The position numbers were made by a program, and so were the translations under genes. Below, in pieces: positions 1 to 29,406 of a DNA stretch of 64,000 nucleotides. The stretch is from Altibacter lentus (GTDB lineage Bacteria > Bacteroidota > Bacteroidia > Flavobacteriales > Flavobacteriaceae), in the NCBI RefSeq assembly GCF_000746845.1, contig NZ_KN050846.1, positions 2,620,963 through 2,684,962 on the forward strand. Reading direction: 5' to 3'. The stretch's first letter is position 1. Every line of letters begins with the position of its first letter. The notes beneath the pieces are model-generated. The model saw only the letters and a program-made list of their open reading frames with translations, was not told the DNA's origin and did no database searches.

Positions 1-577
1 TTTTTGGTCTGTGAAATTCATCTATTAAAACATCACCTATTCTTCCAACAGATATTGCTACGAGTATTTGAGTTATCCAATCAGGATGCGCTGGGCATCC
101 AGGGATATTTATAACAGGTAAGCCTCCTTTTGAAACGTAGTCGTGACCTAAGAAGCCTCCTTTATTTTTCTTATGAAATTGTAAACCAGTTGATTCACTA
201 GGGTTTGGCGCTACAGCGGGAATTCCTCCCCAAGTTGCACAATCTCCAATTGCAACTACATAGCCTGCAACCTTTGATAATTCTTTAATCCAATCCATCA
301 TTGGTCTATCGGCAAAATAATTCATTGTCCCAGTATTATTAGGACCTTTTATTAAGGAACCTTCATATACCAGAATATCCATTTGAACTTTTCCTGCTAA
401 GATATCTTTTAAAAGATCTTGTACTTGATCTCCAATTTGTAATCCTGTAGTTGGATGCCAAAGAATATTAAGCCCGAAATCTGTAATAAGTTCTACCACA
501 GTTGGTTCTTCAGCGTTCAAAAAGGACATTGTGTTTCCACTACATGCACCTCCTTGTAACCATAAAACGTTTGCCAT
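1..577 (-). CDS. hupS: Uptake [NiFe]-hydrogenase small subunit, group 2a-like, N-terminal 192 residues (cut by window edge)
   Basis: The small subunit carries the iron-sulfur clusters that pass electrons from the NiFe site of the large subunit to the respiratory chain. The reading frame is open from the ATG at 577 to the window edge. The N-terminus has the motif GGACSGNT (Cys12), then GDCATWGG (Cys113) and GCPAHP (Cys161), all in positions expected for proximal and medial cluster ligands. There is no Tat signal peptide, and the direct start MANVLWLQGGACSGNT is typical of cyanobacterial HupS and other group 2a enzymes, which are not exported. A large-subunit gene would be expected further left, outside the window. 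The gene lies on the ICE side of the attachment site. Group assignment is from memory of the family, not a search. Confidence 0.88.
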   Translation of the reverse strand, partial: MANVLWLQGGACSGNTMSFLNAEEPTVVELITDFGLNILWHPTTGLQIGDQVQDLLKDILAGKVQMDILVYEGSLIKGPNNTGTMNYFADRPMMDWIKELSKVAGYVVAIGDCATWGGIPAVAPNPSESTGLQFHKKNKGGFLGHDYVSKGGLPVINIPGCPAHPDWITQILVAISVGRIGDVLIDEFHRPK

Positions 578-1635
578 AAAATGTTGGGTTTTGATTAGAT
601 TAAGATTCGAAAATAACAAAAATATTTCTATTTTCAAAATTCGAATAATCAATTTGATAAATTAATTGCCAATATTTTATAAAAAAAAAATATATAACGG
701 TAATAATTTCAAAAAACTAAATTTTTGGCAATTTATTAGAGAAGTTAGAATAGCTCCAAAAGCCCTAAAAATTAAATATCAGGTATTTTACACATAAATC
801 GGTAAACTCTGAATAGTTCTATAAAATGGTCGTTTTATGCGACTATAGTAAACGAAAATAGGAGGTAAAGAAACTAAAGTCTCATTTTCCGTCTTTTTTA
901 GTAGTATTGTTAATTGACCTTTTATGAGACAAAGTATAGTGGTTCTTAACTCTTTAATCAGCACATTCCCCAGCATTTCGCGAAAAGCTACATTCCGGAA
1001 AAAGAGCTTCACTACATAAGTCTTGGACACAATCCCCAATTTCAGCTTTCCATTCCGTTAACCCTTCCCGCTACGCTGGAACGGGACACTTCATTCCTGA
1101 GCCAAAATCGTGAATCAAGTCCGCTTTTCATTGGAAAGTCATCACTTCGATTTTCTTAACAGTATTTTCGGCGCGGTCTTCTTGAGCCCTTACTCGAAAA
1201 TCCTTAAAAACCGAACCGCTGCCTTACACATTTTAAGGGGTTTATAATGGATAGAGCCTTCAATGTTTTTCGGGTCGTCGAAAAACAGGCACGACATAAC
1301 CAATTCTAAATTAAACACAGCTGCTTATATCGCTTAACTGCCGGTACGCTCAAACTCAACTGCGTTTAAAAGAATTGCTAATGCCCTTATGGAACTTGTC
1401 AAGACTATACAAGTTTTAGTGAAAAATAAGGTTTCTACTTCCTTGAAATTCCAAGGAATTTACTACGTCGCAAACACACCTGATTTTATCCCAAAAAGTC
1501 TGGACAAAACCCACTCTATCCATTGTGCGGTGCACAGAAGAAAAGAACAAACACCCCTTAAAATTTAATTCAGTTTAAATCAAATAGGGGAAATATAAAC
1601 CAGTCTGTAACAAAGCAGGCACAAATCTTTTTATT
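578..1635. other. Intergenic region between hydrogenase gene and ssb
   Basis: About 1.06 kb with no convincing gene. It should hold the divergent promoters of the hydrogenase gene and of ssb. A 59-codon frame starts at ATG 1389 and stops at 1568 (plus strand), and an 83-codon frame lies at 788-1039 (minus); neither has a recognisable domain, and both are left unannotated. I searched both strands by eye for a second copy of the tRNA-Met 3' half and found only a 10-base match at 1065-1074, so the left end of the ICE is probably not here. Confidence 0.5.
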
Positions 1636-1980
1636 ATGAGTACTATTAAAAATCACGTACAGTTAATTGGAAACGTTGGACAAGAGCCAACCATTACGAA
1701 CCTTGAAAGCGGAAAGAAAGTAGCCCGTTTTTCATTAGCAACAAATGAGTATTACAAGGACAAAGAAGGCAACAAGCAAACGGACACGAATTGGCATACC
1801 GTAGTAGCTTGGGGCAAAACTGCCGAAATTGTAGAGAAGTATGTTGTTAAAGGCAAAGAAGTTGGAATATCGGGAAAGCTTAAAACCCGAAGTTATACAA
1901 ATGATGATAACGAACAACGCTATGTTACGGAAGTTGTAGCCGATGAAATTCTATTACTTGGAAGCAAAGACGACAAGTAA
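1636..1980 (+). CDS. ssb: Single-stranded DNA-binding protein of the ICE
   Basis: A 114-residue OB-fold protein that coats single-stranded DNA, here probably the strand transferred in conjugation. The N-terminus (residues 5-30: HVQLIGNVGQEP, then KKVARFSLATNE) and the core WHTVVAWGKTAEIVEKYVVKG are classic SSB. It is shorter than chromosomal SSB (about 150-180 residues) and lacks the flexible acidic DDDxPF-type tail, as is common for mobile-element copies. It is the first gene of a plus-strand block leading to the mobilisation genes. A hairpin with a T-run follows the stop codon (about 1995-2032). Confidence 0.93.
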   Translation: MSTIKNHVQLIGNVGQEPTITNLESGKKVARFSLATNEYYKDKEGNKQTDTNWHTVVAWGKTAEIVEKYVVKGKEVGISGKLKTRSYTNDDNEQRYVTEVVADEILLLGSKDDK

Positions 1981-3471: not shown

Positions 3472-4503
3472 ATGTATATCACAATCACAGCTCAAAAGTT
3501 AGGCGGTAATTATTCCCAAAGTTCAGCAGATTTTGTAGGCTATTTAGAGAAAGAAAATGAAGGTTTAGAAACGCGAGATATGGAACACTTTTTTAATCAA
3601 TATGGCGATGAAATTTCCGCAGAGGAAGTGGTAAAAGAAATTGATGGAAACACAGCAAAATTGAAAAAGAAAGAACCTAAATTTTATTCCATTACGGTCA
3701 GCCCATCGAAGTATGAATTGAAGCGATTACAGAACAATCGGGAAGATTTAAAAACCTACACCAAAGATATAATGAAAGATTATGTCACATCATTCAATCG
3801 GGAAATAAACGGACGACCCATAACAATAGATGACATTAAATATTATGCTAAAATTGAACAGCAACGAACCTTTAAGGGAACAGATTTTCAGATAAAAGAA
3901 AACCAACCTTTCGCTACAAAAATATTGCAGCTAAAAACGGACATCCGAAATATTGAAGCAGGAAGAGCTGAAGGAAATATTAAAAAAATGAAAAGAGAAA
4001 TTACTAAATTAGAAGGACAAGCACCACACCAACTAAACAGAAAACGGATAGTCCAAGGAATGGCAAAAGATGGAAACCAAAGTCACATTCATATTATCGT
4101 GAGCAGAAAAGATGCTTCAAATTCAATCAGTCTTTCCCCAGGAAGTAAACACAAAGCTTCGGAAGTTGAAATGCACGGTAAAAATGTAAAACGAGGTTTT
4201 GATAGAGACAAATTTTTCGAGAAAGCAGAAAAGACTTTTGACAAGACATTTGGCTACAAACGTAACTTTGCAGAAACCTATAAAGCACGAAAAGATTTTG
4301 TCAAGAATCCCAACTTATATTTTGCTGCCTTAATGAAATTACCAGCTAATGAAAAAGCGTTGGCATTTAAAATGATTACAAAAACAGGATTGCCAATCAT
4401 TCCAAGTATTCCAGTAAGTCAGGCACAAATTGCACTTCGAGTTTTCAAAAGATTAAGACGTGGCGCAGAAGTGGCCATAAAATCAAGTTCCATCGGAATA
4501 TGA
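3472..4503 (+). CDS. mobB: Relaxase/mobilisation protein (MobB, DUF5712-like)
   Basis: A 343-residue protein expected to nick oriT and carry the single strand to the recipient. The metal-binding motif of relaxases is visible as QSHIHIIVSR at about residues 202-211 (two His spaced HxH), preceded by a region with a conserved Tyr and the string SITVSPSKYEL. It matches the DUF5712/MobB type found with BfmA and MobC in Flavobacteriia elements. Its last codon overlaps the coupling-protein start (ATGA-type overlap at 4500-4503), showing translational coupling. The catalytic Tyr is not certain from sequence alone. Confidence 0.75.
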   Translation: MYITITAQKLGGNYSQSSADFVGYLEKENEGLETRDMEHFFNQYGDEISAEEVVKEIDGNTAKLKKKEPKFYSITVSPSKYELKRLQNNREDLKTYTKDIMKDYVTSFNREINGRPITIDDIKYYAKIEQQRTFKGTDFQIKENQPFATKILQLKTDIRNIEAGRAEGNIKKMKREITKLEGQAPHQLNRKRIVQGMAKDGNQSHIHIIVSRKDASNSISLSPGSKHKASEVEMHGKNVKRGFDRDKFFEKAEKTFDKTFGYKRNFAETYKARKDFVKNPNLYFAALMKLPANEKALAFKMITKTGLPIIPSIPVSQAQIALRVFKRLRRGAEVAIKSSSIGI

Positions 4504-6089
4504 TGAATATGCAAATAGATAATCTCATAACGATACTTTCAATTATTGGTTTAGCCAGTACTGTTTTCTATGCGTTTTTTCGGGTAAGTAGATATGCGTT
4601 TCTTTTGAATTTTATATTGCTTTCAATTTTTGTGTTCTATATTTCTGAGGGAAACGAATTAGTATCGCTATTACTCTATTTGGTTTGTCCTCTACTATTA
4701 ATTAATACAGGACTATATGTATTTCTGCATAAAACTGAAAATGTACAAAACGGAAATACCAAGTACCAAGTCAATTTTGCTACAAACAAAGGGAACTTCA
4801 AATTAGATAATATTAAACGTGGAGCATCCGTCATAGGTTCTGCGGGAAGTGGTAAGACAGAAAGTGTGGTTTATGGATTTCTAAAACATTTTCAGAAAGA
4901 GAGCTTTTGCGGAATTATTCACGATTACAAAGATTTTGAACTAACCGAAATGGCATATCCACTTTTCAAGGATAGTAATATTCCGTTTAAGGTTATTTCC
5001 TTCGATAAAATTATACATCGCGTAAATCCTATTGCGCCACGCTATTTAGAGAACGAGGAAAGCGTAAACGAGGTGTCTCGAGTTTTAATTGAAAACCTTT
5101 TGGAACAAAGGGAATCGGGAACTACAGGAACGACAAAATTCTTTAACGATGCAGCTGAAGGTTTGATTGGTGGATTGATTTGGAAATTAAAAACCGACTA
5201 CCCTAAATATTGTACACTACCGCATTTGATAGCGATTTACCAACACCTCGATACAGATAGCCTAATTCAATTTTTGGAAACCAACACCACATCAAGAGCG
5301 ATGGCAGATGCATTTATCAGCGGTAAGGATTCTGAAAGGCAGACCGCAGGTGTTAAAAGTACGTTGGCAAATGCGTTGAAACGAATTAGCACACAACGGA
5401 TTTTTATGGCTTTATCAGCAGATGAAGTGCCGCTTAATATAAATGATTCTAAAAACCCTTGTGTTATTTCGATTGTTAATAATCCAAAATTTGAGACTTC
5501 GTATTCGCCTGTAATCGCAACAATTATTCATACAATTACAAAACAAATGAGTGTTCGGAATTCTAAACCGTCGTTCTTGCTGATGGAAGAAGCACCGACC
5601 ATTCGTTTGTTGAATATGCATCGTATTCCAGCTACATTGAGAAGCTATAATATCTCTACAATTTACGTGATGCAGGATAAAATTCAAAACGATATGATGT
5701 ATGGCGATAAAGCGAGCAAAGCTATTTTAAGCAATCTTTCCTACCAGTTTTTCGGAAAGGTAAATGACCCGGACACCGCAAAATATTACGAACGCTTTTT
5801 TGAAATCATTAAAGACCCAACCAAGAGTATCAGTCGGGGACATAACCTCGATTTTGACACAAGAGTTACTACAGGCGAAAAAGAAATCCCAAAGATTCGG
5901 GCGGACGTATTTTTCAGATTGAAACAGGGCGAGTTTATCACGTATGCTGATGGTAGAGATAAGAAGGTGCAGTTTAAGTTAGCAGATATTCAAAGGGAAC
6001 TTCCTAATGAAACTAATCCGTTTTCTAAAGCTGATTTAGAAGCTAATTTTGAACGGGTTTATGATGAGGCGCGGTCTATATTTAAGTAA
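4500..6089 (+). CDS. mobC: Type IV coupling protein (MobC/TraG-type ATPase)
   Basis: A 529-residue VirD4/TraG-like ATPase that links the relaxosome to the conjugation pore. Residues 8-85 contain two to three hydrophobic segments (membrane anchor). The Walker A motif GSAGSGKTES is at about residues 111-120. LLMEEAPTIRLL at about 360 is the Walker B region, followed by the family's YNISTIYVMQDKIQ stretch. Length is typical. It overlaps the relaxase by four bases and closes the mobilisation operon. A 113-base gap with palindromes separates it from the defence cluster. Confidence 0.88.
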   Translation: MMNMQIDNLITILSIIGLASTVFYAFFRVSRYAFLLNFILLSIFVFYISEGNELVSLLLYLVCPLLLINTGLYVFLHKTENVQNGNTKYQVNFATNKGNFKLDNIKRGASVIGSAGSGKTESVVYGFLKHFQKESFCGIIHDYKDFELTEMAYPLFKDSNIPFKVISFDKIIHRVNPIAPRYLENEESVNEVSRVLIENLLEQRESGTTGTTKFFNDAAEGLIGGLIWKLKTDYPKYCTLPHLIAIYQHLDTDSLIQFLETNTTSRAMADAFISGKDSERQTAGVKSTLANALKRISTQRIFMALSADEVPLNINDSKNPCVISIVNNPKFETSYSPVIATIIHTITKQMSVRNSKPSFLLMEEAPTIRLLNMHRIPATLRSYNISTIYVMQDKIQNDMMYGDKASKAILSNLSYQFFGKVNDPDTAKYYERFFEIIKDPTKSISRGHNLDFDTRVTTGEKEIPKIRADVFFRLKQGEFITYADGRDKKVQFKLADIQRELPNETNPFSKADLEANFERVYDEARSIFK

Positions 6090-6202: not shown

Positions 6203-6403
6203 ATGAACCGAATAAAAGAGGTTTTGGAACAGAAAGGAATAAAACAAATCTGGTTGGCAGAACAATTGGGAAAGAGTTACAATATGGTGCACTCTTATGC
6301 TCAAAACAAAAGACAACCGAGTTTAGAAGACCTGTACAAAATTGCAGAAATTTTAAATGTGCAAGTCAAAGAATTACTAATTGAAAGAACGACCAATAAA
6401 TGA
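6203..6403 (+). CDS. XRE-family HTH regulator (restriction controller-like)
   Basis: A 66-residue Cro/C1-type helix-turn-helix protein (IKQIWLAEQLGKSYNMVHSYAQNKRQPSLEDLYKIAEIL is the HTH core, residues 14-52). Its stop overlaps the start of the type III methyltransferase gene by four bases (6400-6403), so it belongs to that operon and probably times expression of methylation and restriction, as controller proteins do. Paired TTTAGTGA motifs upstream are candidate binding sites. Confidence 0.82.
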   Translation: MNRIKEVLEQKGIKQIWLAEQLGKSYNMVHSYAQNKRQPSLEDLYKIAEILNVQVKELLIERTTNK

Positions 6404-8436
6404 AACTATACGAAGCATTAGAAAAACAACTCAAAACCGAAAACAATTTTGTTTCCGACAATGGAGAATTAAAAAAATGGGTTGTAATCAGTAAAGCACA
6501 GAATTTTGATGTTGGACTTTTAGAATTATTGCTTGATAATAAAGAATTGAAAGAAAAATTCTTTTTGGATATAAAAGGAACTTTAGTTTTTGACCAAAAC
6601 TTGTTTATCCAATTTTTAGAACAAAAAAATTATTCAAACGATAGTTACACGAAATACAGAATAAAAGTAGGTCTTACAATAGATGGTAAATTCCTAAAAC
6701 AAAGAAACGAAGTTTCTTTAGTTTGGCCATTCAAGGATTGTATCTTGGAAGGTGGTCAAAGTAAAGAGGAAGATAAGCGAGAAGAAATCTTTTTTAATGA
6801 AATTCTAGCTCAAGATGAAATCACACAATTACTAGAACCAAAAATTTTAACTAACGCTAAAACCTTCAATGAAGAAGGCGAACATACTTTCAAAAGTTTT
6901 ACGAGAAATGCTGAACTAAATAAAAAAAGAGAACTTCCAGAAAACACGATTACTGACAACCTCATAATTAAAGGCAATAATTTATTAGCTCTAAATACAA
7001 TAGAGCAAGAATTTTCTGAAAGAATAAAGCTTATTTACATTGACCCACCTTACAATACTGGAAGTGATTCATTTAAATATAATGACTCTTTTACTCATTC
7101 TAGTTGGCTTACGTTTATGTACAATCGATTTAAGTCCGCAAAAAAACTGTTACATAAATCGGGTGTGATTTTTGTTCAAATCAATGACCATAATAAAACC
7201 AACCTAAAAATAATGATGGATGAAATTTTTGGTGTTGAAAATTTCATAAACCTTATTTCTGTTAGAACAAAATCACCATCTGGCTTTAAAACTGTGAATT
7301 TAGGACTATTTGAAACCGCAGAATATATATTAATGTATGGAGTTTCAAAAAATGATTTTAATTATAATTTACAATATGTGGATTCTGGATATGATACAAA
7401 TTATACAGGCTACATTACCAATATAAAAGAACAGCCAGAAAAATGGATTATAGATGATATTAGAAAAATCATTTGTCGTGAAGAAGGAATTGACCCAGAC
7501 ACAACACATCATCCATATAGTAAAGTTCAAAAGAAAATAGGAGAAGGCGTATACATTCAAAAATTAAGTGATTTCGCATTAAAAAATTCAAATTCCGTTT
7601 TTCGTCTTACTGCTATTGGAGACGATGCTGGAAAAGATACTCTTGATATAAAAAAGAAGTCCAAAAAAAATAATGAAAAAGTATTTGAGGTTAAGAGAGA
7701 AAATAATGATTCTCGATTTTTATTAAACGGTCAAGAAATTGCTTTTTATTCGAAAAAAATTAAAAATATTGATGGTGTAGAAACACCTACTACTCTACTA
7801 ACAAATATATGGACTGATATTGCTTATGAAGGAATTGCGTCAGAAGGTGGAGTTACCTTAAAAAAAGGGAAAAAACCCGAAAAATTATTGAGAAGAATTA
7901 TCGAAATGTCAACCAATGAAAATGATATAGTTTTAGATTATCATTTAGGAAGCGGAACGACAGCTGGAGTTGCTCATAAATTAGGAAGACAGTATGTTGG
8001 AATTGAACAACTCGATTATGGCAAAAATGACAGCACAATCAGACTACAAAATGTTATTAATGGAGACCAATCAGGTATTTCAAAAGCTATTAATTGGAAA
8101 AGCGGAGGTTCATATACATATTTCGAGCTTAAAAAATATAATCAAAAATTCATAGAACAAATTGAAGAAGCAAAAGACAATAAAACCTTATTGCAGATTT
8201 GGGAACAAATGAAAGCTAAATCATTCCTCAATTACAATTTAGATATTCAGAAACAAGAAGAACATATTGATGAACTTAAAGAATTAGATTTAAAACAACA
8301 AAAAGAACATTTAATAGAGTTATTGGATAAAAATCAATTGTATGTAAACTTATCTTCAATTGATGATAAAGATTTTCAAGTTGATAAAAATGAGAGAACA
8401 GTAACCAAAGATTTTTACCAAATTAAAAAGGATTAA
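6400..8436 (+). CDS. mod: Type III restriction-modification methyltransferase (Mod)
   Basis: A 678-residue DNA N6-adenine methyltransferase that also gives the complex its sequence specificity. The catalytic motif DPPYNTGSD is at about residues 216-224 and the AdoMet-binding motif LGSGTTAG follows far downstream (about 517-524), the motif order of beta-class Mod proteins. The central region between the two is the target-recognition part. It is translationally coupled to the XRE gene before it, and the Res gene begins two bases after its stop. Base composition is very AT-rich compared with the mobilisation genes, which suggests the R-M unit was acquired as a block. Confidence 0.92.
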   Translation: MKLYEALEKQLKTENNFVSDNGELKKWVVISKAQNFDVGLLELLLDNKELKEKFFLDIKGTLVFDQNLFIQFLEQKNYSNDSYTKYRIKVGLTIDGKFLKQRNEVSLVWPFKDCILEGGQSKEEDKREEIFFNEILAQDEITQLLEPKILTNAKTFNEEGEHTFKSFTRNAELNKKRELPENTITDNLIIKGNNLLALNTIEQEFSERIKLIYIDPPYNTGSDSFKYNDSFTHSSWLTFMYNRFKSAKKLLHKSGVIFVQINDHNKTNLKIMMDEIFGVENFINLISVRTKSPSGFKTVNLGLFETAEYILMYGVSKNDFNYNLQYVDSGYDTNYTGYITNIKEQPEKWIIDDIRKIICREEGIDPDTTHHPYSKVQKKIGEGVYIQKLSDFALKNSNSVFRLTAIGDDAGKDTLDIKKKSKKNNEKVFEVKRENNDSRFLLNGQEIAFYSKKIKNIDGVETPTTLLTNIWTDIAYEGIASEGGVTLKKGKKPEKLLRRIIEMSTNENDIVLDYHLGSGTTAGVAHKLGRQYVGIEQLDYGKNDSTIRLQNVINGDQSGISKAINWKSGGSYTYFELKKYNQKFIEQIEEAKDNKTLLQIWEQMKAKSFLNYNLDIQKQEEHIDELKELDLKQQKEHLIELLDKNQLYVNLSSIDDKDFQVDKNERTVTKDFYQIKKD

Positions 8437-8438
8437 AT

Positions 8439-11006
8439 ATGGCATTTCTATATAACATATTCGATAATCCCTTTGCACGTAAGGCACTTGAACAAGTGAA
8501 TGTTCCAAATTATATCACAGATAATTTAAAATATTCTATTAGACCATATCAAGAAGAATCCTTTAGAAGATACATCTATTCTGACATTGAGGATTTTGAT
8601 GGTAAGCCTAACAAACCTTATCACCTTCTTTACAATATGGCAACAGGTAGTGGGAAAACATTAGTTATGGCTGGACTTATTCTATACCTATATGAAAAAG
8701 GTTATCGAAATTTCCTCTTCTTTGTAAATTCTAATAATATCATTAATAAAACAAAAGATAACTTCTTAAATCCTCAATCGTCTAAATATTTATTTGCGAA
8801 TAAAATAGTAGTTAATAGTAAAGAGGTTTTTGTAAAAGAGGTTCAAAATTTTGACGAAGCTGACAACCAAAACATTAATATAAATTTTGTTTCAATTCAA
8901 AAGTTAACATCTGGTTTATTTACTAATGTCAAAGAAAACGGAATAAGCTTTGAAGATTTCGAAAACAGAAAAACAGTTCTTATTTCAGATGAAGCACATC
9001 ATAATAATGCAGAAGTTTGGGGAGAAATAGTAGACAGAATTCATAAAACAAATTTTGAAAATATCCTTTTAGAATTTACAGCTACTTTAGATTATGATAG
9101 TCAAGCCATAGTTGAAAAATATCAAGACAAGGTCATTCATAAATACGACCTTGCACAGTTTAGAATTGATAAATACTCTAAAGAAATTAATTTAATAAGG
9201 TCTTTATATGATGAACGTGAACGAATAATCCAAGCATTGATATTGAACTTATATCGTCAAGAATTAGCAAATTCAAAAGGAATTAACTTAAAACCAGTAA
9301 TTCTATTTAAAGCGAAAAAGACAATTAAAGAATCGGAGCAAAACAAAGTCAATTTTCATAAATTGATTGAGGGTTTTTCGGTTTCAATGGTTAAGAACAT
9401 TCAAGAAACTTCAACTGTTCAAATCATTCAAAAAGCATTTTCATTTTTTGAATCCCAGAATATAACATTAAATGAAATTTCTAAAAGAATAAAATCAAAC
9501 TTCAAAGAAGAAAATTGTTTAAGTGCTAATGAATCAAATTCTAAAGACAAAAAAAGCTTATTAGAAGGCAAAAAAAGTGATGAATTATTAAATACTTTAG
9601 AAAATGTAAACAATCCAATTAGAGCTGTTTTTGCAGTTCAAAAACTAAATGAAGGTTGGGATGTTTTAAATCTATTTGATATAGTTCGATTATATGAAGG
9701 TCAGAATACTGGTGGTTCAAATACTAAAATTGGGAAAACAACACTTTCGGAAGCTCAATTGATTGGTAGAGGTGCTAGGTATTTTCCTTTTACACTAGAG
9801 GAAGGACAAGATAAATATAAACGAAAGTATGATGATGACACTACAAATGATTTAAAGGCATTAGAAGAATTGTATTATCATACTAAAGAAGATAATCGAT
9901 ACATTTCTGAATTGAAAAAAGCTTTAGTAGAATCTGGAATTTATGAAGACGATGACAAACTGGAAACTAAACAACTAACTTTAAAGTTAGGATTTAAAGA
10001 AACAGATTTCTACAAAACAGGAAAAGTAATATTTAATAAGAAAGTACCAAAGAGCTATAACAATGTAAAATCTTTCTCTGATTTAGGTGTTTCAAAACGA
10101 AATTTCGCTTTCACTCTATCATCTGGTATTGGAGTAATGTCAATTGCTTTCGAAAAAGAAGAAAAAGAGAGTAAAACTGAAAAAATAGAGCAAAAAGACA
10201 TCGCAATTTCTGCAATTCCAAAACACATAACAAGATATGCTCTTGCTCAAAATCCGTTTTATTATTTTTCAAATATTATAAGGTATTTTCCTAAAACTGA
10301 ATCTCTATCTAATTTAATTGAAAACCCAAATTATTTAGGTGGTTTAGAAATTACCTTTAACGGCTCAAAAAAAAGACTATCAAAGATTTCTAATCGTGAT
10401 TACTTGTTAGCAGTTCAAGGTTTATTACAAACTATTGAATCTGAAATTAAATCAAATCTTACGGAATATGAAGGCTCTGAATATTTCAACAAATATGTAC
10501 ACGAAGTATTTAAAGACAAAGAAATAAAAGTTTATAAAGATAGTGAACGAGCAGATGGTCAAGAAGGCTTGGTTGCTAATGAACCTTGGTATGTTTACAA
10601 TGCAAATTATGGAACTAGTGAAGAAAAAGAGTTTGTGAAAATGTTCGCTAGACGTTTCGAAAATTTAGAAAAATCCTTTGAAAATATTTACTTGATTCGT
10701 AATGAAAGAGAAATCAAAATCATTGATAAAATGGGCAGAGCTTTTGAGCCAGATTTCGTTCTATTTTGTAAACAAAAAGCAGGGAATGAATTGACTTATC
10801 AAGTATTCATTGAGCCGAAAGGAAACCATTTGAAAGCTCACGATAAATGGAAAGAAGACTTCTTAAAAGAGATTAGAGAAGATAAAACGACAATAGAAAT
10901 TGACTCTGATAAATATTTGATAACAGGCGTTCCATTTTATAATAACGAAAATGAAAATGAATTTAAGGAAACATTGGAAAATACATTAAATGAAGCCAAT
11001 GCATAA
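8439..11006 (+). CDS. res: Type III restriction enzyme, helicase/nuclease subunit (Res)
   Basis: An 855-residue superfamily 2 ATPase with a nuclease domain. Walker A MATGSGKT is at about residues 66-73 and the DEAH box SDEAHHN at about 182. The C-terminal part has a PD-(D/E)xK-like site: FEPDFVLF at about 768 and VFIEPKGNH at about 789. Together with Mod it cuts DNA after translocation or sliding between inversely oriented unmethylated sites. The gene is slightly shorter than classic EcoP15I Res (about 970 residues). It ends the XRE-mod-res operon; the next gene starts 177 bases later with its own likely promoter. Confidence 0.92.
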   Translation: MAFLYNIFDNPFARKALEQVNVPNYITDNLKYSIRPYQEESFRRYIYSDIEDFDGKPNKPYHLLYNMATGSGKTLVMAGLILYLYEKGYRNFLFFVNSNNIINKTKDNFLNPQSSKYLFANKIVVNSKEVFVKEVQNFDEADNQNININFVSIQKLTSGLFTNVKENGISFEDFENRKTVLISDEAHHNNAEVWGEIVDRIHKTNFENILLEFTATLDYDSQAIVEKYQDKVIHKYDLAQFRIDKYSKEINLIRSLYDERERIIQALILNLYRQELANSKGINLKPVILFKAKKTIKESEQNKVNFHKLIEGFSVSMVKNIQETSTVQIIQKAFSFFESQNITLNEISKRIKSNFKEENCLSANESNSKDKKSLLEGKKSDELLNTLENVNNPIRAVFAVQKLNEGWDVLNLFDIVRLYEGQNTGGSNTKIGKTTLSEAQLIGRGARYFPFTLEEGQDKYKRKYDDDTTNDLKALEELYYHTKEDNRYISELKKALVESGIYEDDDKLETKQLTLKLGFKETDFYKTGKVIFNKKVPKSYNNVKSFSDLGVSKRNFAFTLSSGIGVMSIAFEKEEKESKTEKIEQKDIAISAIPKHITRYALAQNPFYYFSNIIRYFPKTESLSNLIENPNYLGGLEITFNGSKKRLSKISNRDYLLAVQGLLQTIESEIKSNLTEYEGSEYFNKYVHEVFKDKEIKVYKDSERADGQEGLVANEPWYVYNANYGTSEEKEFVKMFARRFENLEKSFENIYLIRNEREIKIIDKMGRAFEPDFVLFCKQKAGNELTYQVFIEPKGNHLKAHDKWKEDFLKEIREDKTTIEIDSDKYLITGVPFYNNENENEFKETLENTLNEANA

Positions 11007-15232: not shown

Positions 15233-16090
15233 TTAATTTGGGTTATTGATATATCTATGTGATATTTTCAGTTCAATGTTTCGTTCGCCATCCTTTTCAT
15301 TCAATTCTAAAATCGCCCTACGGTCATTAGATAATGAAAATTTGGGCAATACATAAACGAAGCGCACAGTTTCACTTTCTGCAATTTTTGAAGGCAGATT
15401 GTGTTTGTACGTTGGTTCTTGATACAGGCGTTGCAACGATTTTCTTTTCCCTTTTTGTCTTGTTTCAATCGAAAGGTTTAAGAAATTCAAATCGTAATCC
15501 AAAGTAGAATTATTCTCAATCTGGATAACGAAGTAGAGTTCTTCCTTATCAAAAACTATATTCTCAACACTCAAAATAATGCCTTCGTTTCGCTTCTTGA
15601 TTCGACCAATATGCTGATTTCTATTAAGAAGATAAGAACAGAATTTTTGGTAATAATACGTTCTGTTATCTATATTATCTTTAACAATTACAGTCTGAAT
15701 AGAATCAATTACTAATGGTTTTTCATTTCCAATACTATTTGATAAAGGAATGAAGTAATTGAGCTTAGACAGTTGCTTTTTATACCTTACAATATACGAA
15801 AAAATTGAACCATTTCTATTGACTACCAGTAGATTACTTTCTTTTCCAGGCTTTGCCTGAAGTAATCCAAAGTATTGTTCTTTCTCACGATTGTAGGTAA
15901 AAACAAAATTATCCGAACCAGTTATACCCTGACGTATAGGTTCTGGGAAAAATAGCGCAACATTTTTAGTGTCGTTTGCATAAATAGTGTCGAGGACTGT
16001 GTTTGTTTGCGTTGTAGCTTGTGCCCAGCACAATCGAGGTGCGATAGCGGACATAATTATAAGAGCTGAAATAATGATATGCTTTTTCAT
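15233..16090 (-). CDS. traN: Conjugative transposon protein TraN (DUF4138)
   Basis: A 285-residue exported protein (signal peptide residues 1-24, ending CWAQA) of the TraN family, a beta-rich outer-membrane-associated part of the Bacteroides-type conjugation pore, analogous to VirB9. It has the family regions DTIYANDTKNVALFFP near the start and FVYVLPKFSLSNDRRAILELNEKDG near the end. It follows traM by 31 bases in the order found in Bacteroidetes ICEs. Confidence 0.85.
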   Translation of the reverse strand: MKKHIIISALIIMSAIAPRLCWAQATTQTNTVLDTIYANDTKNVALFFPEPIRQGITGSDNFVFTYNREKEQYFGLLQAKPGKESNLLVVNRNGSIFSYIVRYKKQLSKLNYFIPLSNSIGNEKPLVIDSIQTVIVKDNIDNRTYYYQKFCSYLLNRNQHIGRIKKRNEGIILSVENIVFDKEELYFVIQIENNSTLDYDLNFLNLSIETRQKGKRKSLQRLYQEPTYKHNLPSKIAESETVRFVYVLPKFSLSNDRRAILELNEKDGERNIELKISHRYINNPN

Positions 16091-16121
16091 AAGAGTGCGT
16101 TTTTAAATGCCCATTATGGGC

Positions 16122-17051
16122 TCATAATTTTGGTTTTAGAATTAATCTGTAATTATTTAGTACGGTTACTTTTATGTTTCGATTGTTACGCCTAAACACC
16201 TTTGTAATTCCGCCTACTTGTGGAACGGTAGGAATATTGATATCGCTAACAATATCGTCTATAACTTCGGTGGTAGCTTCTGCTCGAAAATTGTTTTGTA
16301 CATAGATGCCCTCACTACCATCCGATAAATCGAAGGCTTTGAGTTTGGTGGGATGATGCTTTATATTTTCAATTTCAATTAAAGCCCGATTGGGCTGAAA
16401 GCTTATAAATCCAAAAACTGGTGTGTTCTTTGGCATCAATTTGTTATTGATTGTTGCAGCTTTGGTAAGACGCATTCGCAATCTGGTATTTGCTTTCACA
16501 ATTTGGTCGCCATCGACAACCACATAAATGGTTTCATCTGTATTGCCAATAATCGAAACTTCGTTTGGTTTCGGCGAAGCAGCAAAGAACAGTTGATGTT
16601 CCAAGCCCAATTCTTTAGCTTCTATTTTTTGTTCTCTTTTGATATCGGCTGAGTCAATTTGCTGTGCAGTATTTTGAGTGATTTTCTTTTGCCCAAAGCT
16701 TTGGTATCGCTTTTCGGAATATTGAATTTTGCCAGCCTGGTAAATACTATCTACGATACGTTTCTTTTCCTGTTCTGGTAAATCAGGATTATAAAGACCA
16801 GTTGAATCCAAAAATTTTTCATCGTAGATACTTGGTGCATTATTTTCACGCACTTCTTTTAAATCATTGATAGCATCTAGTTTAGAATCATACTCTTTTT
16901 GGTTTTCATCTAAATCTGGCACTAAAGTCTGTTCAAGATTTTCATTTTCACTTTTATCATCGCCCATAACCATCATAGAATAGGAAATTAGGAATATGAA
17001 AATCACGACCAATACCGCTGCAAATACTATTTTATTCTTTTCTACTTTCAT
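16122..17051 (-). CDS. traM: Conjugative transposon protein TraM
   Basis: A 309-residue inner-membrane-anchored protein (one hydrophobic helix, residues 8-28) with a long charged, coiled linker (30-150) and a C-terminal beta domain containing RLTKAATINNKLMPKNTPVFGF. This is the VirB10-like component that bridges the two membranes. It lies between traK and traN, as in other Bacteroidetes conjugative transposons. It is shorter than Bacteroides TraM (about 400-450 residues). Confidence 0.85.
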   Translation of the reverse strand: MKVEKNKIVFAAVLVVIFIFLISYSMMVMGDDKSENENLEQTLVPDLDENQKEYDSKLDAINDLKEVRENNAPSIYDEKFLDSTGLYNPDLPEQEKKRIVDSIYQAGKIQYSEKRYQSFGQKKITQNTAQQIDSADIKREQKIEAKELGLEHQLFFAASPKPNEVSIIGNTDETIYVVVDGDQIVKANTRLRMRLTKAATINNKLMPKNTPVFGFISFQPNRALIEIENIKHHPTKLKAFDLSDGSEGIYVQNNFRAEATTEVIDDIVSDINIPTVPQVGGITKVFRRNNRNIKVTVLNNYRLILKPKL

Positions 17052-17082
17052 AATCGTGGTTTTTTAATTGCCGATTATCGGC

Positions 17083-17703
17083 TCAATTTTCATCGTTTAA
17101 TTTTTTTAAGGTGTTCTCGAAATAGTTTGTAATCAATAATCCGTGTGGATTGTTTGGAAAATTTCTATCAACTGATATTAAGTTTCCACTAGAAATAAGT
17201 TCGTAGGTGTCTATTATTGAACCACGATTGATTTCAAAAATGGTAACGGTTCTAAAGACATACGTTCCGTTTTGTTCTTCGATTTGTGAGTTTGTGCTCA
17301 GCACCTTCTGAACGAGCGAGTATTGAAGTAATCTGTTATAGACACCATCAGCCTTTTTCTGGCGATATAAATTGTCTACAGAACTATTCCCTAGCCAAAG
17401 TGCCTTTTCAAGATTCCGTTCGTAATTACTCGCATCGATGTTATAGAAGTAGTTATGAAATAGGTCTAAATGTGCCAAAGCTTCAACCTTAAAATTCTCT
17501 TTTTGGGTAACGAGTTTCAGCGGAATAATACTGCCATCAGTATTAATAGCAAAAGCGCTATTGAGTGCTTTTTGATTTGTGCTGAATGCCATCCAAAGTG
17601 AAAAGATGCTAGATAGCATTGCAAAAATGACAACTGCCAGAACGATAAATCGGTTCAGTTTTAAGACGGCATAGATGTTTTTATAAGGTGTTTTCATTTT
17701 CAT
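17083..17703 (-). CDS. traK: Conjugative transposon protein TraK
   Basis: A 206-residue protein with one N-terminal membrane helix (residues 17-37) and a periplasmic domain, the VirB8-like scaffold of the conjugation apparatus. The family features TPYKNIYAVLKLNRFIVLAV at the start and FHNYFYN in the middle are present. The gap to traJ is five bases. Confidence 0.87.
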   Translation of the reverse strand: MKMKTPYKNIYAVLKLNRFIVLAVVIFAMLSSIFSLWMAFSTNQKALNSAFAINTDGSIIPLKLVTQKENFKVEALAHLDLFHNYFYNIDASNYERNLEKALWLGNSSVDNLYRQKKADGVYNRLLQYSLVQKVLSTNSQIEEQNGTYVFRTVTIFEINRGSIIDTYELISSGNLISVDRNFPNNPHGLLITNYFENTLKKLNDEN

Positions 17704-17708
17704 TGGAA

Positions 17709-18551
17709 TTAACTGGTAAACAATCTGAGCGTGAACGATGTGGCGCGTTTGTATAATTTGAATTTTAGGAAGACAATAAAAAATACCGACCCTAACTGAA
17801 CCACAGGTGCAAAAAAGCCCTGGCCAACATCTGTACCAAAAAGGTTAGTCCAGAAATTAGTGTTGATTTCAGTATAGAGCGCATTTACAAATACATTGAC
17901 CAAAAAGAAGGCAGGCACCAACATATACACCGCAGCATATAACTTAAAAAACGTGTAGGCAAGCGAACGAAATTTTTCAAAAACCGCTAGACTAATTACC
18001 AAAGGAAAAAAGGCTTGCATTATACCCAATAAGAAGTAGCGTTCCGCAAGGAATAGTGGGTAGATGAACAAATCCAAAATCCAAAGAAAAAGGCTAACGA
18101 TAAATGCAAATATTTTGAATCCGTAGAGTGGTGTTACCAATGCTTCATATAAGAGCGTCATAGCAGCTTGCGCTACCTCGATGATACTTACATCTTCTTC
18201 AATAGGAATATCTTGCATCTGCAACGGTAATAAAGCAGGTGCTGTACCACGATATTGCGCTTCTATCGAAACCAAGATACTATCGAAAAAGCCTAATACT
18301 TGTGTCGAGAATATGACTAGAACAACAATTGCAAAATTCTTCATCAATTCCCCAGGACTCAATCCCCAAGTATAGCCATCCTTATCTGCAACACCTTCAT
18401 TATACTTTTTAAGGATATTAATTAAAAAGAACAGAACAGCAAGCGTTTTCATTCCGGCAATAGTGTATTGCGAGAAGCTGCTGTTCTGTATGGTTTGAAA
18501 CACCGCATCGATGTATTCCAGTCCAATCCCTAAAAGTATGGTTGCGGTCAT
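17709..18551 (-). CDS. traJ: Conjugative transposon protein TraJ (polytopic membrane protein)
   Basis: A 280-residue protein with about six hydrophobic segments (about 35-47, 78-95, 135-160, 170-195, 200-225, 250-265). It is the VirB6-like inner-membrane channel component. It is shorter than Bacteroides TraJ (about 330 residues) and starts MTATILLGIGLEYIDAVFQ. Two bases separate it from the gene upstream. Confidence 0.8.
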   Translation of the reverse strand: MTATILLGIGLEYIDAVFQTIQNSSFSQYTIAGMKTLAVLFFLINILKKYNEGVADKDGYTWGLSPGELMKNFAIVVLVIFSTQVLGFFDSILVSIEAQYRGTAPALLPLQMQDIPIEEDVSIIEVAQAAMTLLYEALVTPLYGFKIFAFIVSLFLWILDLFIYPLFLAERYFLLGIMQAFFPLVISLAVFEKFRSLAYTFFKLYAAVYMLVPAFFLVNVFVNALYTEINTNFWTNLFGTDVGQGFFAPVVQLGSVFFIVFLKFKLYKRATSFTLRLFTS

Positions 18552-18553
18552 TT

Positions 18554-19123
18554 TTAATATTCCGTTTCTCTGTTATTTACTTTATCCTGCATTTTTCTGA
18601 AGGAAATAATATCCTTGTAGCGTTTCGTTTTTGTCTGAATATTGGAAACCATTTCTTTCGATTCCAATTCTTTTTCTTTTAAAACTTCCGCACGTTCAGC
18701 ATCGGTCATTTTTAGATTATCGCTAGATAGTATTTCGCCCATAAAGTCAACGGCGTCCAATGAGTTTTGAACTATCGCATCAAAGGATTGTGCAACCCGA
18801 GTAACTTCCTCTGGTTTGATGTAAGGCGAGTTCAGGATGTCTTGTAAATCATTCTGCATTACATTGATAAGGCGCTGATTGTTTTGTGCTATTTCTTGAA
18901 CCGCTCTAAGTTGTTGTACCACACTTGATACTTTCTCGATGCTCTCTTTTGCATCTTTTAAAAATTTTACAGACTTAATCATTTGAGCTGTCTGTTTACC
19001 AGATTCTACAAGTTGTTTTATCAAACTGACAAAATTGGTATTGTCATAAGTTGGCATTCCCTGGGCTTTAATATTTAAGCTAAACAGTAATGCGATTGCG
19101 AGTACTAAGATTTTTGTTTTCAT
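18554..19123 (-). CDS. TraI-like secreted coiled-coil protein (DUF4141-type)
   Basis: A 189-residue precursor with a signal peptide (residues 1-20, ending NIKAQ) and an almost wholly helical mature part (residues 30-185), like the VirB5-type pilus/pore assembly proteins called TraI (DUF4141) in Bacteroides elements. It sits between traG and traJ, where that protein is expected. Identification rests on position, length and fold pattern. Confidence 0.68.
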   Translation of the reverse strand: MKTKILVLAIALLFSLNIKAQGMPTYDNTNFVSLIKQLVESGKQTAQMIKSVKFLKDAKESIEKVSSVVQQLRAVQEIAQNNQRLINVMQNDLQDILNSPYIKPEEVTRVAQSFDAIVQNSLDAVDFMGEILSSDNLKMTDAERAEVLKEKELESKEMVSNIQTKTKRYKDIISFRKMQDKVNNRETEY

Positions 19124-19134
19124 TGTTTTTATAT

Positions 19135-21531
19135 TTAAGATGTGAATTGAATTATTGCTTTTTCCATATCGTTATGCTCATTGTAGAGCTTCATTATTTC
19201 TTCATTTTCTTGCCCATCAGTCAAGTAAGCTGCATAGACTTCCTTTGGAACTTCAAGACGGAAAATGTTACTTTCCTTTCCTATCTTGATAAACATTTCT
19301 GTGTACTTCCGTGGTCCAGAAAGGTTGTTTTTAATGGACTTTAATTGGTTCAAATCGTGGCTAGAAAGATTTAGCCTTTTGACTAATTCGTCATAGCCTT
19401 TTTCATTGTTTAGGCTATAAATGACTTGTGTATTTTCTAATATGCTTGCGGATGTTGAATTATTCGGTAGCTGATTAATTGATTGTAGAATAATCCCAAT
19501 AGCACCATTTTGTTTACGAATAGCTTGGTAGTAGAATTCCACACTTTCCAGTACGTTGTCAAACTTTAACTGTTTGGCAAACTCATCAAATAGGATGATA
19601 CCTTTTTCAGCTCTATTCTTCCAAATGGTTCTTTGGATAGCTGACTTAATCAACTTCAACATTACGGACAAGATTTCCTTGTTATCCTTTACTTCATCCA
19701 GTTCAAAAACAATCAATCGTTTGTCCTCAATCTTATAGGTCTGGTCTTCGCTTACCTCAAACAAGAAGCTGTATAGACCATCGCCGACATATTCGGACAT
19801 TACGTGCAAAAAGCTTGTGACGTTGAAGTAGTCGGGATGGATTTTTAGAATGTTTAGAAGGTCTCTTTGGTTTATTTCTATAAAGCTGTAAAAACCATCC
19901 AATGAGTGATTTTCCGGTGTACTATCGTAATAATGTTTCAGTATTTTCTTGACAGAAACAGATTGTGCCTTGGTCACTTTTAAATCTGAAGCGAACAGTT
20001 CAAACAGGAAAACGGACAAGTCTTCCAACCGTTCCGGTGTCAAATCTTTTACATCGCTGATGTAAAAAGGATTGATACCTAAGTTCTTTCCGCTTTCATA
20101 TCTGAGTACGGTATATTTCTCAGGATATAGTTTTGCGAATTTGGTGTAAGAACCACCCAAGTCGATGATGACCAGACGGACACCACTTTCAAAATATTGA
20201 CGTAAAATATTATTGGCCAAAAACGATTTCCCTTCGCCTGTTGGTGCGAAAATGGCGAAGTTTCGTGCTTTTATACGTTTCTTGCGTTCGTCCCAAACAT
20301 CTTTTAGAACAGGTACATTATGTTCTCTATCATTGAAAATGATTCCGGTAGCATCTGAGTTGTAATTCGTATTGTTGATAAACAGGCATAAAGCGTGCTT
20401 TAAATCTGTCACATATAAATCGTTATTTGAAAAGTTGGATGAAAAACAGCAGTAACTATTAAGGATGTAGTTCTTCCGTTCTTCGCCTCTTGGATAGTAT
20501 GGAATAATGTCCAGTTCTTTAAACTCAGTTTTAATTTTTGAACCGATTCGGCTTAAATTTTCAGGGTTCTTATCCCAATACACAATGTTTAGATGACCAC
20601 GGATTATTCGTGCATTATCATCGGCATTAATCTGGTCGAGAATGTGTTGAATTTTGCCTAGTACGACTTTGTTCTGAGAGCCGAAATTGGAACTTTTGTT
20701 CAGTTCTTCAACTTTCTTATCAAGCAGCTTGCGCCACTTCTGTTTGTCATCCAAATACAAGATTTGATTGACTATGTGATTCTCATTAAGCGTAAGCCCT
20801 AAGCCATCAATAAACCCTTGATGAAACACAAAATCGTCAGATGTGAATTTCTCATTGGTCTTGCTACTCTGTACACTTTCGCCAAAGCACAGTTCGCTAT
20901 TGACAGCCAGGGCATCAAAATGGTTTTCGCCAATATTGACGCTTTTTTTATCTAGTATGATATCAGTATCAAACCCATCATTGAAGCCATTGAAATAGCC
21001 ATTTGTGAGTTGCTGTATCTCTTTCGCTTTAAGCGAAACGAAGGTCATCTTTCGGCTATTGTTTATAAAGGATATAGAATCGCTTACTGAACCGATGAAG
21101 CTCTTAACGCTATCATCCAATTGTTGAACAATTCCTTTGGAAACTTTACGAAAAGGGTTGACATATTTTGAATTATTCAACGCTTTGTTCTTAGTGAGCG
21201 TAAAGAACAAAAAGCAACGATGTTCCATATAATCACGCCCTTTGAAGTGGTCGTGGGTCGCTTTTTCTAAAAAGGTTGTATTCGGAAGCTTTTCTGAAGT
21301 GTATGTTTTCTTTAGGTAGATATCCTGTTTTTGAACCACCGTACCAATGGGCAATGATTTTAAAGCCTGAAACCAAGCACCGTGTATGTCCTCGAAGTCT
21401 TTTTCAGATAGTGAATAGATTTCTGGTAGCGTTCCTTCATAGCATAGGACGACATTGCCATTATTGGCAAATATGATATTGTCTTGAATATCCGTAATAG
21501 GGTTATATGCTGAAAGATTAATCTTGTTCAT
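19135..21531 (-). CDS. traG: Conjugation ATPase TraG (VirB4-like)
   Basis: A 798-residue ATPase that powers assembly of the conjugation channel. Walker A APTGEGKSFLANN is at about residues 427-439 and Walker B ILFDEFAKQL at about 646-655; LQSINQLP near 690 is a conserved sensor-like stretch. The N-terminal 300 residues are the VirB4 membrane-facing domain. Length fits the family. The start overlaps the DUF4133 gene by 14 bases, showing translational coupling. It is one of the best markers of the element. Confidence 0.92.
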   Translation of the reverse strand: MNKINLSAYNPITDIQDNIIFANNGNVVLCYEGTLPEIYSLSEKDFEDIHGAWFQALKSLPIGTVVQKQDIYLKKTYTSEKLPNTTFLEKATHDHFKGRDYMEHRCFLFFTLTKNKALNNSKYVNPFRKVSKGIVQQLDDSVKSFIGSVSDSISFINNSRKMTFVSLKAKEIQQLTNGYFNGFNDGFDTDIILDKKSVNIGENHFDALAVNSELCFGESVQSSKTNEKFTSDDFVFHQGFIDGLGLTLNENHIVNQILYLDDKQKWRKLLDKKVEELNKSSNFGSQNKVVLGKIQHILDQINADDNARIIRGHLNIVYWDKNPENLSRIGSKIKTEFKELDIIPYYPRGEERKNYILNSYCCFSSNFSNNDLYVTDLKHALCLFINNTNYNSDATGIIFNDREHNVPVLKDVWDERKKRIKARNFAIFAPTGEGKSFLANNILRQYFESGVRLVIIDLGGSYTKFAKLYPEKYTVLRYESGKNLGINPFYISDVKDLTPERLEDLSVFLFELFASDLKVTKAQSVSVKKILKHYYDSTPENHSLDGFYSFIEINQRDLLNILKIHPDYFNVTSFLHVMSEYVGDGLYSFLFEVSEDQTYKIEDKRLIVFELDEVKDNKEILSVMLKLIKSAIQRTIWKNRAEKGIILFDEFAKQLKFDNVLESVEFYYQAIRKQNGAIGIILQSINQLPNNSTSASILENTQVIYSLNNEKGYDELVKRLNLSSHDLNQLKSIKNNLSGPRKYTEMFIKIGKESNIFRLEVPKEVYAAYLTDGQENEEIMKLYNEHNDMEKAIIQFTS

Positions 21532-21802
21532 AATCGAATCCAGAATTTCTTTTGTTATTTATTATTTTAGGGAAGGCTTTAGCTGTTTGAAACAGTTGTG
21601 GATTATTAGCCATCCTTGTAAGAGCGATGTATAAGGCTGCATTAAAAACCATAACACCTATTATCATTAAGAAGCTGAATGAAAAAATGATGATTAATAA
21701 CGAAGCAAGAATCGCAACCATCATTAATGCAAACAAGGAAATAGGCAGCCCAAAAATGACCGCCCGCTTCCTGATGTTTTTATAGACCTCAAACTTCTTC
21801 AT
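21518..21802 (-). CDS. traF: TraF-like membrane protein (DUF4133)
   Basis: A 94-residue protein with two transmembrane helices (about 17-38 and 42-62), the VirB3-like partner of the TraG ATPase. It starts MKKFEVYKNIRKRAVIFGLP, typical of DUF4133. It overlaps traG by 14 bases and lies two bases from traE. Confidence 0.85.
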   Translation of the reverse strand: MKKFEVYKNIRKRAVIFGLPISLFALMMVAILASLLIIIFSFSFLMIIGVMVFNAALYIALTRMANNPQLFQTAKAFPKIINNKRNSGFDYEQD

Positions 21803-21804
21803 AG

Positions 21805-22092
21805 TTACACTACGATTCCGATTAAGTATGTGAAGATGCCGACTACTGCGCCAGCAATTAAAACAAATACTAGTACTCTAGTAATTCCTTTTTTAAGGTC
21901 TGCATTTTCCCCAAAGAAATGTCCTGCGTTAAACAGGAAGCCAACTAGGAAGATGACACCTAATAAAATTGGAAAAATAGTTCTGATAGTGTCGCCAACA
22001 TCATTAACTGAATCTTCAATACCACCAATTTGAGCAAAAAGCGAAGTGGATAAGAGTGAAAGAAATGATGCTAAATAGAGTGATTTTTTCAT
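21805..22092 (-). CDS. traE: TraE (DUF4134), VirB2/pilin-like membrane protein
   Basis: A 95-residue protein with a cleavable signal (residues 1-20, ending SLFAQ) and two membrane helices (about 38-58 and 72-94). This is the first gene of the tra operon, as in Bacteroides elements, and probably a pilin-like subunit. The operon promoter must lie in the 189-base divergent gap to the amidase gene, which holds an inverted repeat at 22155-22177. Confidence 0.87.
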   Translation of the reverse strand: MKKSLYLASFLSLLSTSLFAQIGGIEDSVNDVGDTIRTIFPILLGVIFLVGFLFNAGHFFGENADLKKGITRVLVFVLIAGAVVGIFTYLIGIVV

Positions 22093-24074: not shown

Positions 24075-24085
24075 ATATATTAAGT

Positions 24086-29246: not shown

Positions 29247-29406
29247 AACTTACTTTTTGCAATGATAAAGATACAAAAACTAGTACAGAATAAGTACAGA
29301 ATAATTTGGTATCGGATGCCTATAATTGATGATAAATTTTATTAAAATTATGTAAATCATTGATTTTAAGTAGTTTTAAGTATTGTTAGTTGCTGTACGG
29401 ACTAAG

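Follow-up and report, generated by a model that had tools for sequence, protein, structure and literature searches.

The window analysed here, a stretch of 64,000 nucleotides, covers positions 2620963-2684962 of contig 1 (3.14 Mb) of the Altibacter lentus genome, which is 3.16 Mb in size, 100% complete and 0.08% contaminated. The window opens inside a gene. The minus-strand reading frame over its first 577 nucleotides corresponds to residues 1-192 of the small subunit of a [NiFe]-hydrogenase, and the product of the whole gene, hupS, matches PF01058 and PF14720 above the Pfam gathering scores. The hupS start codon at 577 and the ssb start codon at 1636 are 1,058 bp apart, as in the initial annotation, which gave 1.06 kb. 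From hupS leftward, the operon continues outside the window with hupL, hupD, orf105, orf89, orf510, hypA, orf288, hypB, hypF, hypC, hypD, hypE and the gene of an NHL-repeat protein (PF01436), and a convergent gene for a NicO-like membrane protein follows; together, the operon and the NicO-like gene occupy genome positions 2607768-2621539, between attL and ssb (Table 1). The maturation genes score above the NCBIfam cutoffs of TIGR00143, TIGR00073, TIGR00072, TIGR02124, TIGR00075 and TIGR00074, and hypA matches below its own cutoff. The best NCBIfam match of the NicO-like protein is the nickel/cobalt efflux transporter family, far under the cutoff, and its Pfam match is DsbD_2; it may have a role in nickel transport.

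The initial annotation had called the uptake hydrogenase group 2a-like, and solved structures, to which this comparison is confined, support that description. HupL matches 7utd/7uus with 679 bits over about 510 residues, almost its whole length, against 216 bits for the next family, and the best match of HupS is 7uur/7utd ('Hydrogenase-2, small subunit') with 448 bits, the runner-up reaching 120 bits. Both subunits fall under every NCBIfam cutoff and above those of Pfam. We take 7utd/7uus to be the group 2a enzyme Huc of Mycobacterium smegmatis. HupL carries the cysteine motifs of the NiFe ligands, RICGICGGSH at residue 60 and SFDSCLVCTVH (C509, C512), and the second of these is identical in 7uus. 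The likeness to Huc extends to the operon, since an NHL-repeat protein and maturation genes accompany group 2a operons in the available text of PMC7784904. In contrast to Huc, none of the four unassigned proteins of the Altibacter operon (orf105, orf89, orf510 and orf288) has a Rieske (HucE) domain by Pfam, and the operon is carried by a conjugative element in a member of Flavobacteriaceae; the Rieske protein is a common neighbour of group 2a enzymes and not a defining part. Searches of orf89, orf105 and orf288 against solved structures gave nothing significant, and orf510 has no NCBIfam match. Group 2a enzymes oxidise H2 during growth, according to the same part of PMC7784904, and the A. lentus enzyme, whose hupL is single-copy in the genome, would likewise oxidise H2 for respiration.

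To the right of ssb, the window holds the genes of an integrative and conjugative element (ICE). Its coupling protein exceeds the gathering scores of three Pfam families and matches the MobC profile NF041326 far below the cutoff. The parts of the type IV secretion system identified are TraM, TraG and a DUF4138 protein that we take to be TraN; the remaining tra genes are presumptive, having been named by position, and the frame at 17709-18551 has no profile match. In its tyrosine integrase, RteC-family protein, MobB relaxase, coupling protein, TraG, TraM and DUF4138 protein, the element resembles the CTnDOT type. It differs in its site, tRNA-Met with a 46-bp repeat, and in its cargo, which consists of the hydrogenase, a type III restriction-modification system and an AbiEii-type gene, whereas the cargo of CTnDOT is antibiotic resistance.

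Table 1. Features of the hydrogenase-bearing element of Altibacter lentus and its surroundings.
Feature	Position	Strand	Basis or remark
attL	genome 2607306-2607351 (13.6 kb left of window)		exact 46-bp repeat
NicO-like membrane protein	genome 2607768-2608475	opposite to operon, convergent	profiles
Operon beyond hupS, with NicO-like gene	genome 2607768-2620559, outside window (operon runs to 2608464)		NCBIfam/Pfam profiles
hupS/hucS, 5' part, group 2a-like small subunit	window 1..577 (ATG at 577), on to genome 2620580	-	Pfam, PDB match
Hydrogenase cassette/ICE backbone junction	window 578..957		similarity limits
ICE backbone, conserved non-coding ssb leader	window 958..1635	+	similarity to other ICEs
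ssb	window 1636..1980 (ATG 1636)	+	PF00436
MobB-family relaxase	window 3472..4503	+	NF041495, 404 bits against a cutoff of 200; DUF5712
Type IV coupling protein (MobC-like)	window 4500..6089	+	PF02534, PF10412, PF12696 above gathering scores
Type III restriction-modification, modification and restriction subunits (ICE cargo)	window 6400..11006	+	PF12564, PF01555, PF04851
Conjugative transposon tra genes	window 15233..22092	-	three by profile, the rest presumptive, by position
DUF4138 protein	window 15233-16090	-	profile
TraM	window 16122-17051	-	Pfam, above gathering score; below NCBIfam cutoff
TraG/VirB4 ATPase	window 19135-21531	-	profile, above NCBIfam cutoff
AbiEii-type nucleotidyltransferase and DUF6577 protein (ICE cargo)	window 23019..24826	-	profile
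RteC-family protein	window 26887..27723	-	PF09357, 202 bits; no NCBIfam match
Tyrosine integrase	window 27912..29246	-	PF17293, PF13102, PF00589 above gathering scores
attR	window 29406..29451, beside integrase		exact 46-bp repeat: 44 bp of tRNA-Met 3' end plus 2 bp
Host flank, DUF2188 gene	window 29964..30284	+	homologue of the gene after tRNA-Met at the empty site of a congener

The initial annotation proposed that the hydrogenase sits on the ICE side of a tRNA-Met attachment site, with no second att copy between it and ssb, and suggested extending the sequence leftward. On extension, an intact tRNA-Met (CAT) was found at genome 2607276-2607349, beyond the operon, and ARAGORN detects no intact tRNA within the window. 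The 3' end of this gene is repeated about 160 bp from the integrase start codon, and the unit from repeat to repeat measures 43,062 bp and holds the entire hydrogenase operon. We searched for a 20-bp core of the tRNA-Met 3' end with up to 3 mismatches; its sole copy in the window is at 29427-29446, where chance predicts none, and in the 18 kb left of the window together with the first 2 kb of the window it occurs nowhere outside tRNA-Met itself. Since the core is absent from the interval even at 3 mismatches, no att copy separates the hydrogenase from ssb. The hydrogenase thus lies between attL and ssb, inside the ICE, and the proposal holds on each of these points.

The congeners agree with this placement. 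None of the three other genomes compared from the genus has a match to hupL, so the hydrogenase locus is not syntenic in ICE-free relatives, the comparison that the initial annotation had also put forward; all three have tRNA-Met. In one of them (G003, a single contig), a DUF748 gene, tRNA-Met and a DUF2188 gene follow one another, which brings both flanks of the ICE side by side, and the DUF2188 protein is 73% identical over 93 residues to that encoded just outside attR in the window. This is the empty site. In a second congener (G002, L106 6862-11134), the genes after tRNA-Met are unrelated to the ICE, and in the third the contig stops 265 bp past the tRNA start, its end resembling the sequence outside attR in UBA3611, a genome of another genus. 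A. lentus and G002 also have partial copies of tRNA-Met upstream of the gene, that of A. lentus being a 5' end; together with the different gene set after the tRNA in G002, they make tRNA-Met look like a repeatedly used integration site.

The border between cargo and ICE can be placed from both sides. The window's cassette resembles those of 19 other genomes up to a point at most 68 bp upstream of hupS, and similarity to the backbones of other ICEs begins at window 958 for an ICE of Flagellimonas meridianipacifica and at 988 for a second ICE in the A. lentus genome itself. The junction accordingly lies between about 645 and 958. In the F. meridianipacifica element (TraG 88% identical), ssb lies about 2.3 kb from a tRNA-Leu with no hydrogenase between the two; it is apparently the backbone without the cargo. 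The hydrogenase of F. meridianipacifica is 114 kb away from this ICE. The second ICE of A. lentus is 87% identical from window 988 onward, and no hydrogenase occurs in the 60 kb of it that were read.

The same ICE, again with the hydrogenase, is found in UBA3611, which belongs to the same family and to a different genus (g93, against g1 for A. lentus) and is represented by L033, by G060 and, judged by identical coordinates, by G329. There, too, the ICE occupies the tRNA-Met of its host, has a separate attR (50 bp, 98%) and carries the hydrogenase in the equivalent place. The hupL DNA of the two is 100.0% identical, against 76.8% for groEL (44.7% at third positions), and the DUF748 proteins beside the tRNA share 45%. 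In 1-kb windows the two ICEs form a mosaic. Identity is 99-100% across 9 kb that hold the restriction genes and their neighbours, 4 kb spanning hupS-hupL, and the NicO end; a few stretches are at 93-98%, and others, among them relaxase to ssb and most hyp genes, are at 67-87%. The hupS-hupL pair is wholly identical amid diverged neighbours; the N-terminal part of the integrase differs, and orf288 has no match in UBA3611. Such a mosaic is not what a single recent transfer of an unchanged element leaves. We read it as recombination between related hydrogenase-bearing ICEs, in which case the hydrogenase would have ridden the ICE lineage for some time.

Given the gene content, the att repeats, the empty site in a congener, the mosaic counterpart of the ICE in UBA3611 and the other vehicles described below, we are confident that the 43.1-kb element in the 3' end of tRNA-Met is a CTnDOT-like ICE whose cargo includes the entire operon of a group 2a (Huc-type) uptake [NiFe]-hydrogenase. 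As the cargo has attL on one side and the ssb end of the ICE on the other, recombination between the two 46-bp repeats would excise the hydrogenase and the conjugation genes together; the relaxase, the coupling protein and the Tra machinery would then carry the hydrogenase along with the ICE into a new host, and the recipient would gain H2 oxidation as a supplementary energy source. An accretion of two elements would give a similar picture: a hydrogenase element may already have been resident in tRNA-Met when the ICE integrated alongside, leaving the hydrogenase a mere neighbour. A stand-alone island of this kind is conceivable, as small integrase elements carry the cassette with no tra genes recognised beside it in three genomes (G079, G074 and G063), and the partial tRNA-Met upstream of the tRNA in A. 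lentus suggests that the site may have served more than once. However, an att copy between cassette and ssb is lacking even at 3 mismatches, and in UBA3611 the identical order of hydrogenase and ICE recurs between the outer att repeats. We consider accretion very unlikely.

The ICE is one of several carriers. A genome scan returned 73 hupL loci, mostly from Bacteroidota by title, of which 23 were followed to their genomes. We read the surroundings of the cassette in 24 genomes, namely 15 of the 23, that of the window, two further genomes with hupL and six from a survey of the family (one of which, G269, is apparently the L056 genome); the choice was non-random and favoured isolates and long contigs. 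A recombinase-bearing vehicle is present in 11 of the 24: the ICE described above in two, a Tn3-family transposon in two, an element at tRNA-Leu in one, at tRNA-Pro in one, at mnmE in three, and at tRNA-Met and tRNA-Asp, with ends unproven, in two. A further three (G260, G110 and G065) have a tRNA close to the cassette and no recombinase in view. In the other ten (G004, G014, G068, G069, G072, G159, G269, G441, G442 and G443) no vehicle was seen, which carries little weight: outside the named vehicles, the search for recombinases relied on visual inspection and on similarity to a small set, and some contigs are short. An integrase-like frame does lie 4.8 kb past the cassette in G072. G004 and G014, which belong to different genera, are similar in DNA sequence between -105 and about 13.6 kb and no further on either side, which would fit a clean insertion of the cassette. 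An mnmE homologue is also found near the cassette of G004.

The Tn3-family transposons that carry the cassette are those of Maribacter sp. PR1 and [Muricauda] okinawensis. The transposase of PR1 matches PF01526 with 447 bits and its resolvase PF00239 with 145 bits, and the okinawensis homologues are 82% and 90-92% identical to them. Terminal inverted repeats align over 57 and 38 bp, the outermost bases matching only partly, and the 5-bp flanks TTTGA and TATTA were read by eye as target duplications. In PR1, the transposon splits the gene of a 1,263-residue protein, presumably an efflux pump by resemblance, exactly at the ends of the unit (residues 1-334 end at 15099 and residues 332-1262 begin at -3224), and the gene is whole in Polaribacter marinus. 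A relaxase (44% identical to that of Allomuricauda sediminis) and coupling-protein-, TraG- and TraN-like matches lie 21-37 kb upstream on contig 17 of PR1, the distant TraG match (24% identity) being about 26 kb upstream of hupS, and an integrase lies 42 kb downstream of the Tn3-borne hydrogenase, with metal-efflux-like genes beside. Because conjugation genes stand on one side and an integrase on the other, the transposon may itself lie within a conjugative element of another kind, for which a search found neither a convincing att repeat nor the ends.

The remaining vehicles are integrase elements. Allomuricauda sediminis has an integrase and a MobA/VirD2-type relaxase, with a 31-bp repeat of a tRNA-Leu end on both sides. 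In A. profundi, the metagenome-assembled genome L035 and G163, elements at the 3' end of mnmE encode an integrase, a Toprim/zinc-finger protein and a relaxase, the domains having been tested in A. profundi and assigned by homology in the other two. These elements are of equal extent and are defined by their shared ends; no long repeat was found, and only A. profundi shows an 11-bp core. The mnmE gene is also the target of SGI1 of Salmonella. In A. nanhaiensis, an integrase element lies at tRNA-Pro, and 0.4 kb beyond the NicO-like gene there is a repeat of 14 bp; with only 14 bp, the repeat of G074 has a chance expectation of about 0.02. Integrases adjoin tRNA-Met in G073 and tRNA-Asp in G385, and searches for far att copies in G073, G385 and G260 found none.

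One ICE for all relatives was considered and rejected. A TraG match occurs in 10 of 20 hydrogenase genomes, and among the close matches only that of UBA3611 accompanies the hydrogenase, the others being at least 114 kb away or on other contigs.

Exchange of the cassette between genera appears to have been recent. In three host pairs, 4 to 19 kb of hydrogenase-bearing DNA is 99.7-100% identical, with groEL DNA at 76-78%. Besides UBA3611 and A. lentus, these are PR1 and okinawensis, which share 13 kb at 99.9-100% (groEL DNA 77.5%) inside Tn3 arms that are 70-88% identical and flanked by different 5-mers, and G163 and L035, which share 19.3 kb at 99.7% (99.7-100% in 1-kb windows; groEL DNA 76.3%) between flanks at 43-66% in a sliding alignment and 67-72% where BLAST aligns them. 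The cassette of PR1 also occurs, at 99.7% identity, in three more Muricauda records, whose contigs measure 18-21 kb and on which no Tn3 ends were found; these three are mutually 100% identical over 17-18 kb and may be close relatives. As hupL DNA is more similar than groEL DNA in 194 of 253 genome pairs, only the extreme pairs are used as evidence. Metagenome assembly or contamination might be thought to have produced such near-identity across genera, as UBA3611 and L035 are metagenome-assembled by title, UBA3611 has a 64-N gap about 0.2 kb outside attR, and identical and diverged blocks alternate between its ICE and that of A. lentus. Contamination would not, however, yield 13 kb of near-identity within two diverged Tn3 transposons with different flanking 5-mers in PR1 and okinawensis, whose titles are not marked as metagenome-assembled; moreover, the ICE of UBA3611 is on a 339-kb contig that also bears its groEL, and G163 is one contig. 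An artefact is hardly credible.

The HupSL data reject the clade that four Muricauda-like hosts form with GroEL (AU p 8e-7) as well as a grouping of the window's host with UBA3611 and L035 (p 0.002), and the GroEL data reject PR1 with okinawensis (p 2e-45) and L035 with A. profundi (p 6e-99), all of these being optimistic p-values because the groups were named after the trees had been seen. The GroEL data do not reject A. lentus and UBA3611 as a pair of hosts (p 0.059), so the case of UBA3611 rests on DNA identity and location and not on tree conflict. Vertical inheritance, that is, an old chromosomal locus of the genus lost in three congeners, could draw on the wide occurrence of relatives and on the ten contexts in which no vehicle was seen, but it is refuted for the window locus by the position between att repeats and the empty site, is opposed by the HupSL tests and by a G+C content of 33.6% in the ICE backbone and 36.1% in the cassette, well under the 44-45% of the host flank, and retains virtually no probability.

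A hupL match (E <= 1e-150) is present in only 14 of 397 sampled genomes of the family, that of the window included, and in 14 of 237 genera, one genome each. The initial annotation held that a mobile H2-oxidation locus would explain the patchiness of these enzymes across Bacteroidetes. Mobility is supported as the explanation; a single ICE is too narrow, as other genomes use different vehicles. We think it likely that the group 2a hydrogenase of Flavobacteriaceae is a nomadic cassette of about 13 kb, from the hupS promoter to the NicO-like gene, which is its own unit of exchange and is loaded onto ICEs, integrase elements (at tRNA-Leu, tRNA-Pro and mnmE) and Tn3 transposons, one of these seemingly inside another conjugative element, and swapped between vehicles. 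Swapping is indicated by the near-identical 13 kb within diverged Tn3 arms and by Muricauda contigs that have the cassette at 99.7% identity and show no Tn3 ends. If this is correct, H2 oxidation would be a circulating trait of the family and not a property of lineages, and could not be predicted from taxonomy in Flavobacteriaceae. A complete set of structural, maturation and putative metal transporter genes on seemingly self-transmissible or transposable elements would supply a mechanism for the scatter, and identical or related cassettes on quite different mobile elements would help to explain patchy H2 use.

Mobile hydrogenases have precedents. Sphingopyxis alaskensis has a plasmid-borne group 2a hydrogenase and consumes H2 to sub-atmospheric levels, and group 2a hydrogenases are expressed in seawater and are phylogenetically diverse and taxonomically widespread in marine genomes, as described in the available portion of PMC10305171, the main text of which, to the same extent, contains neither 'horizontal' nor 'mobile'. 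Plasmid-encoded proteins of Runella, Hymenobacter and S. alaskensis are 78%, 75% and 56% identical to HupL, respectively; these are similar genes on extrachromosomal replicons, but the replicons are plasmids and not integrating elements. Of 36 plasmid records matching HupL (E <= 1e-60), the 25 listed name no genus of Flavobacteriaceae. In Alteromonas, an island of hydrogenase and metal-resistance genes occurs on plasmids pAM1A3 and pGLAAG01 and on chromosomes of different marine species, so that a hydrogenase cluster is common to plasmid and chromosome; in contrast to the cassette, that island belongs to Gammaproteobacteria and is linked to metal resistance, and the accessible parts of PMC5217437 and PMC4781885 make no mention of carriage of a hydrogenase by an ICE, IME or Tn3. 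Among the matches listed in our literature search, which covered titles and the openings of abstracts and mostly open literature, none reports a group 2a hydrogenase on an ICE, IME or Tn3 in Flavobacteriaceae. The enzyme and the element classes are thus known and hydrogenase mobility has precedent, while the combination of several vehicles, seen repeatedly, is new as far as the literature was searched.

The end of the ICE that adjoins the cassette has features of its own. The non-coding ssb leader of about 680 bp (958-1635) is 77-88% identical between ICEs; a search of the window against Rfam gave no match, and this region could contain an oriT or a regulatory leader. In the second ICE of A. 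lentus (genome 2364-2405 kb), a piece of this leader, 42-125 bp long and within window 973-1130, is repeated in the same orientation between blocks of cargo, at 2369043, 2374631, 2382409/2382534 and 2385524. Cargo may have been captured repeatedly at the ssb end and left these copies behind.
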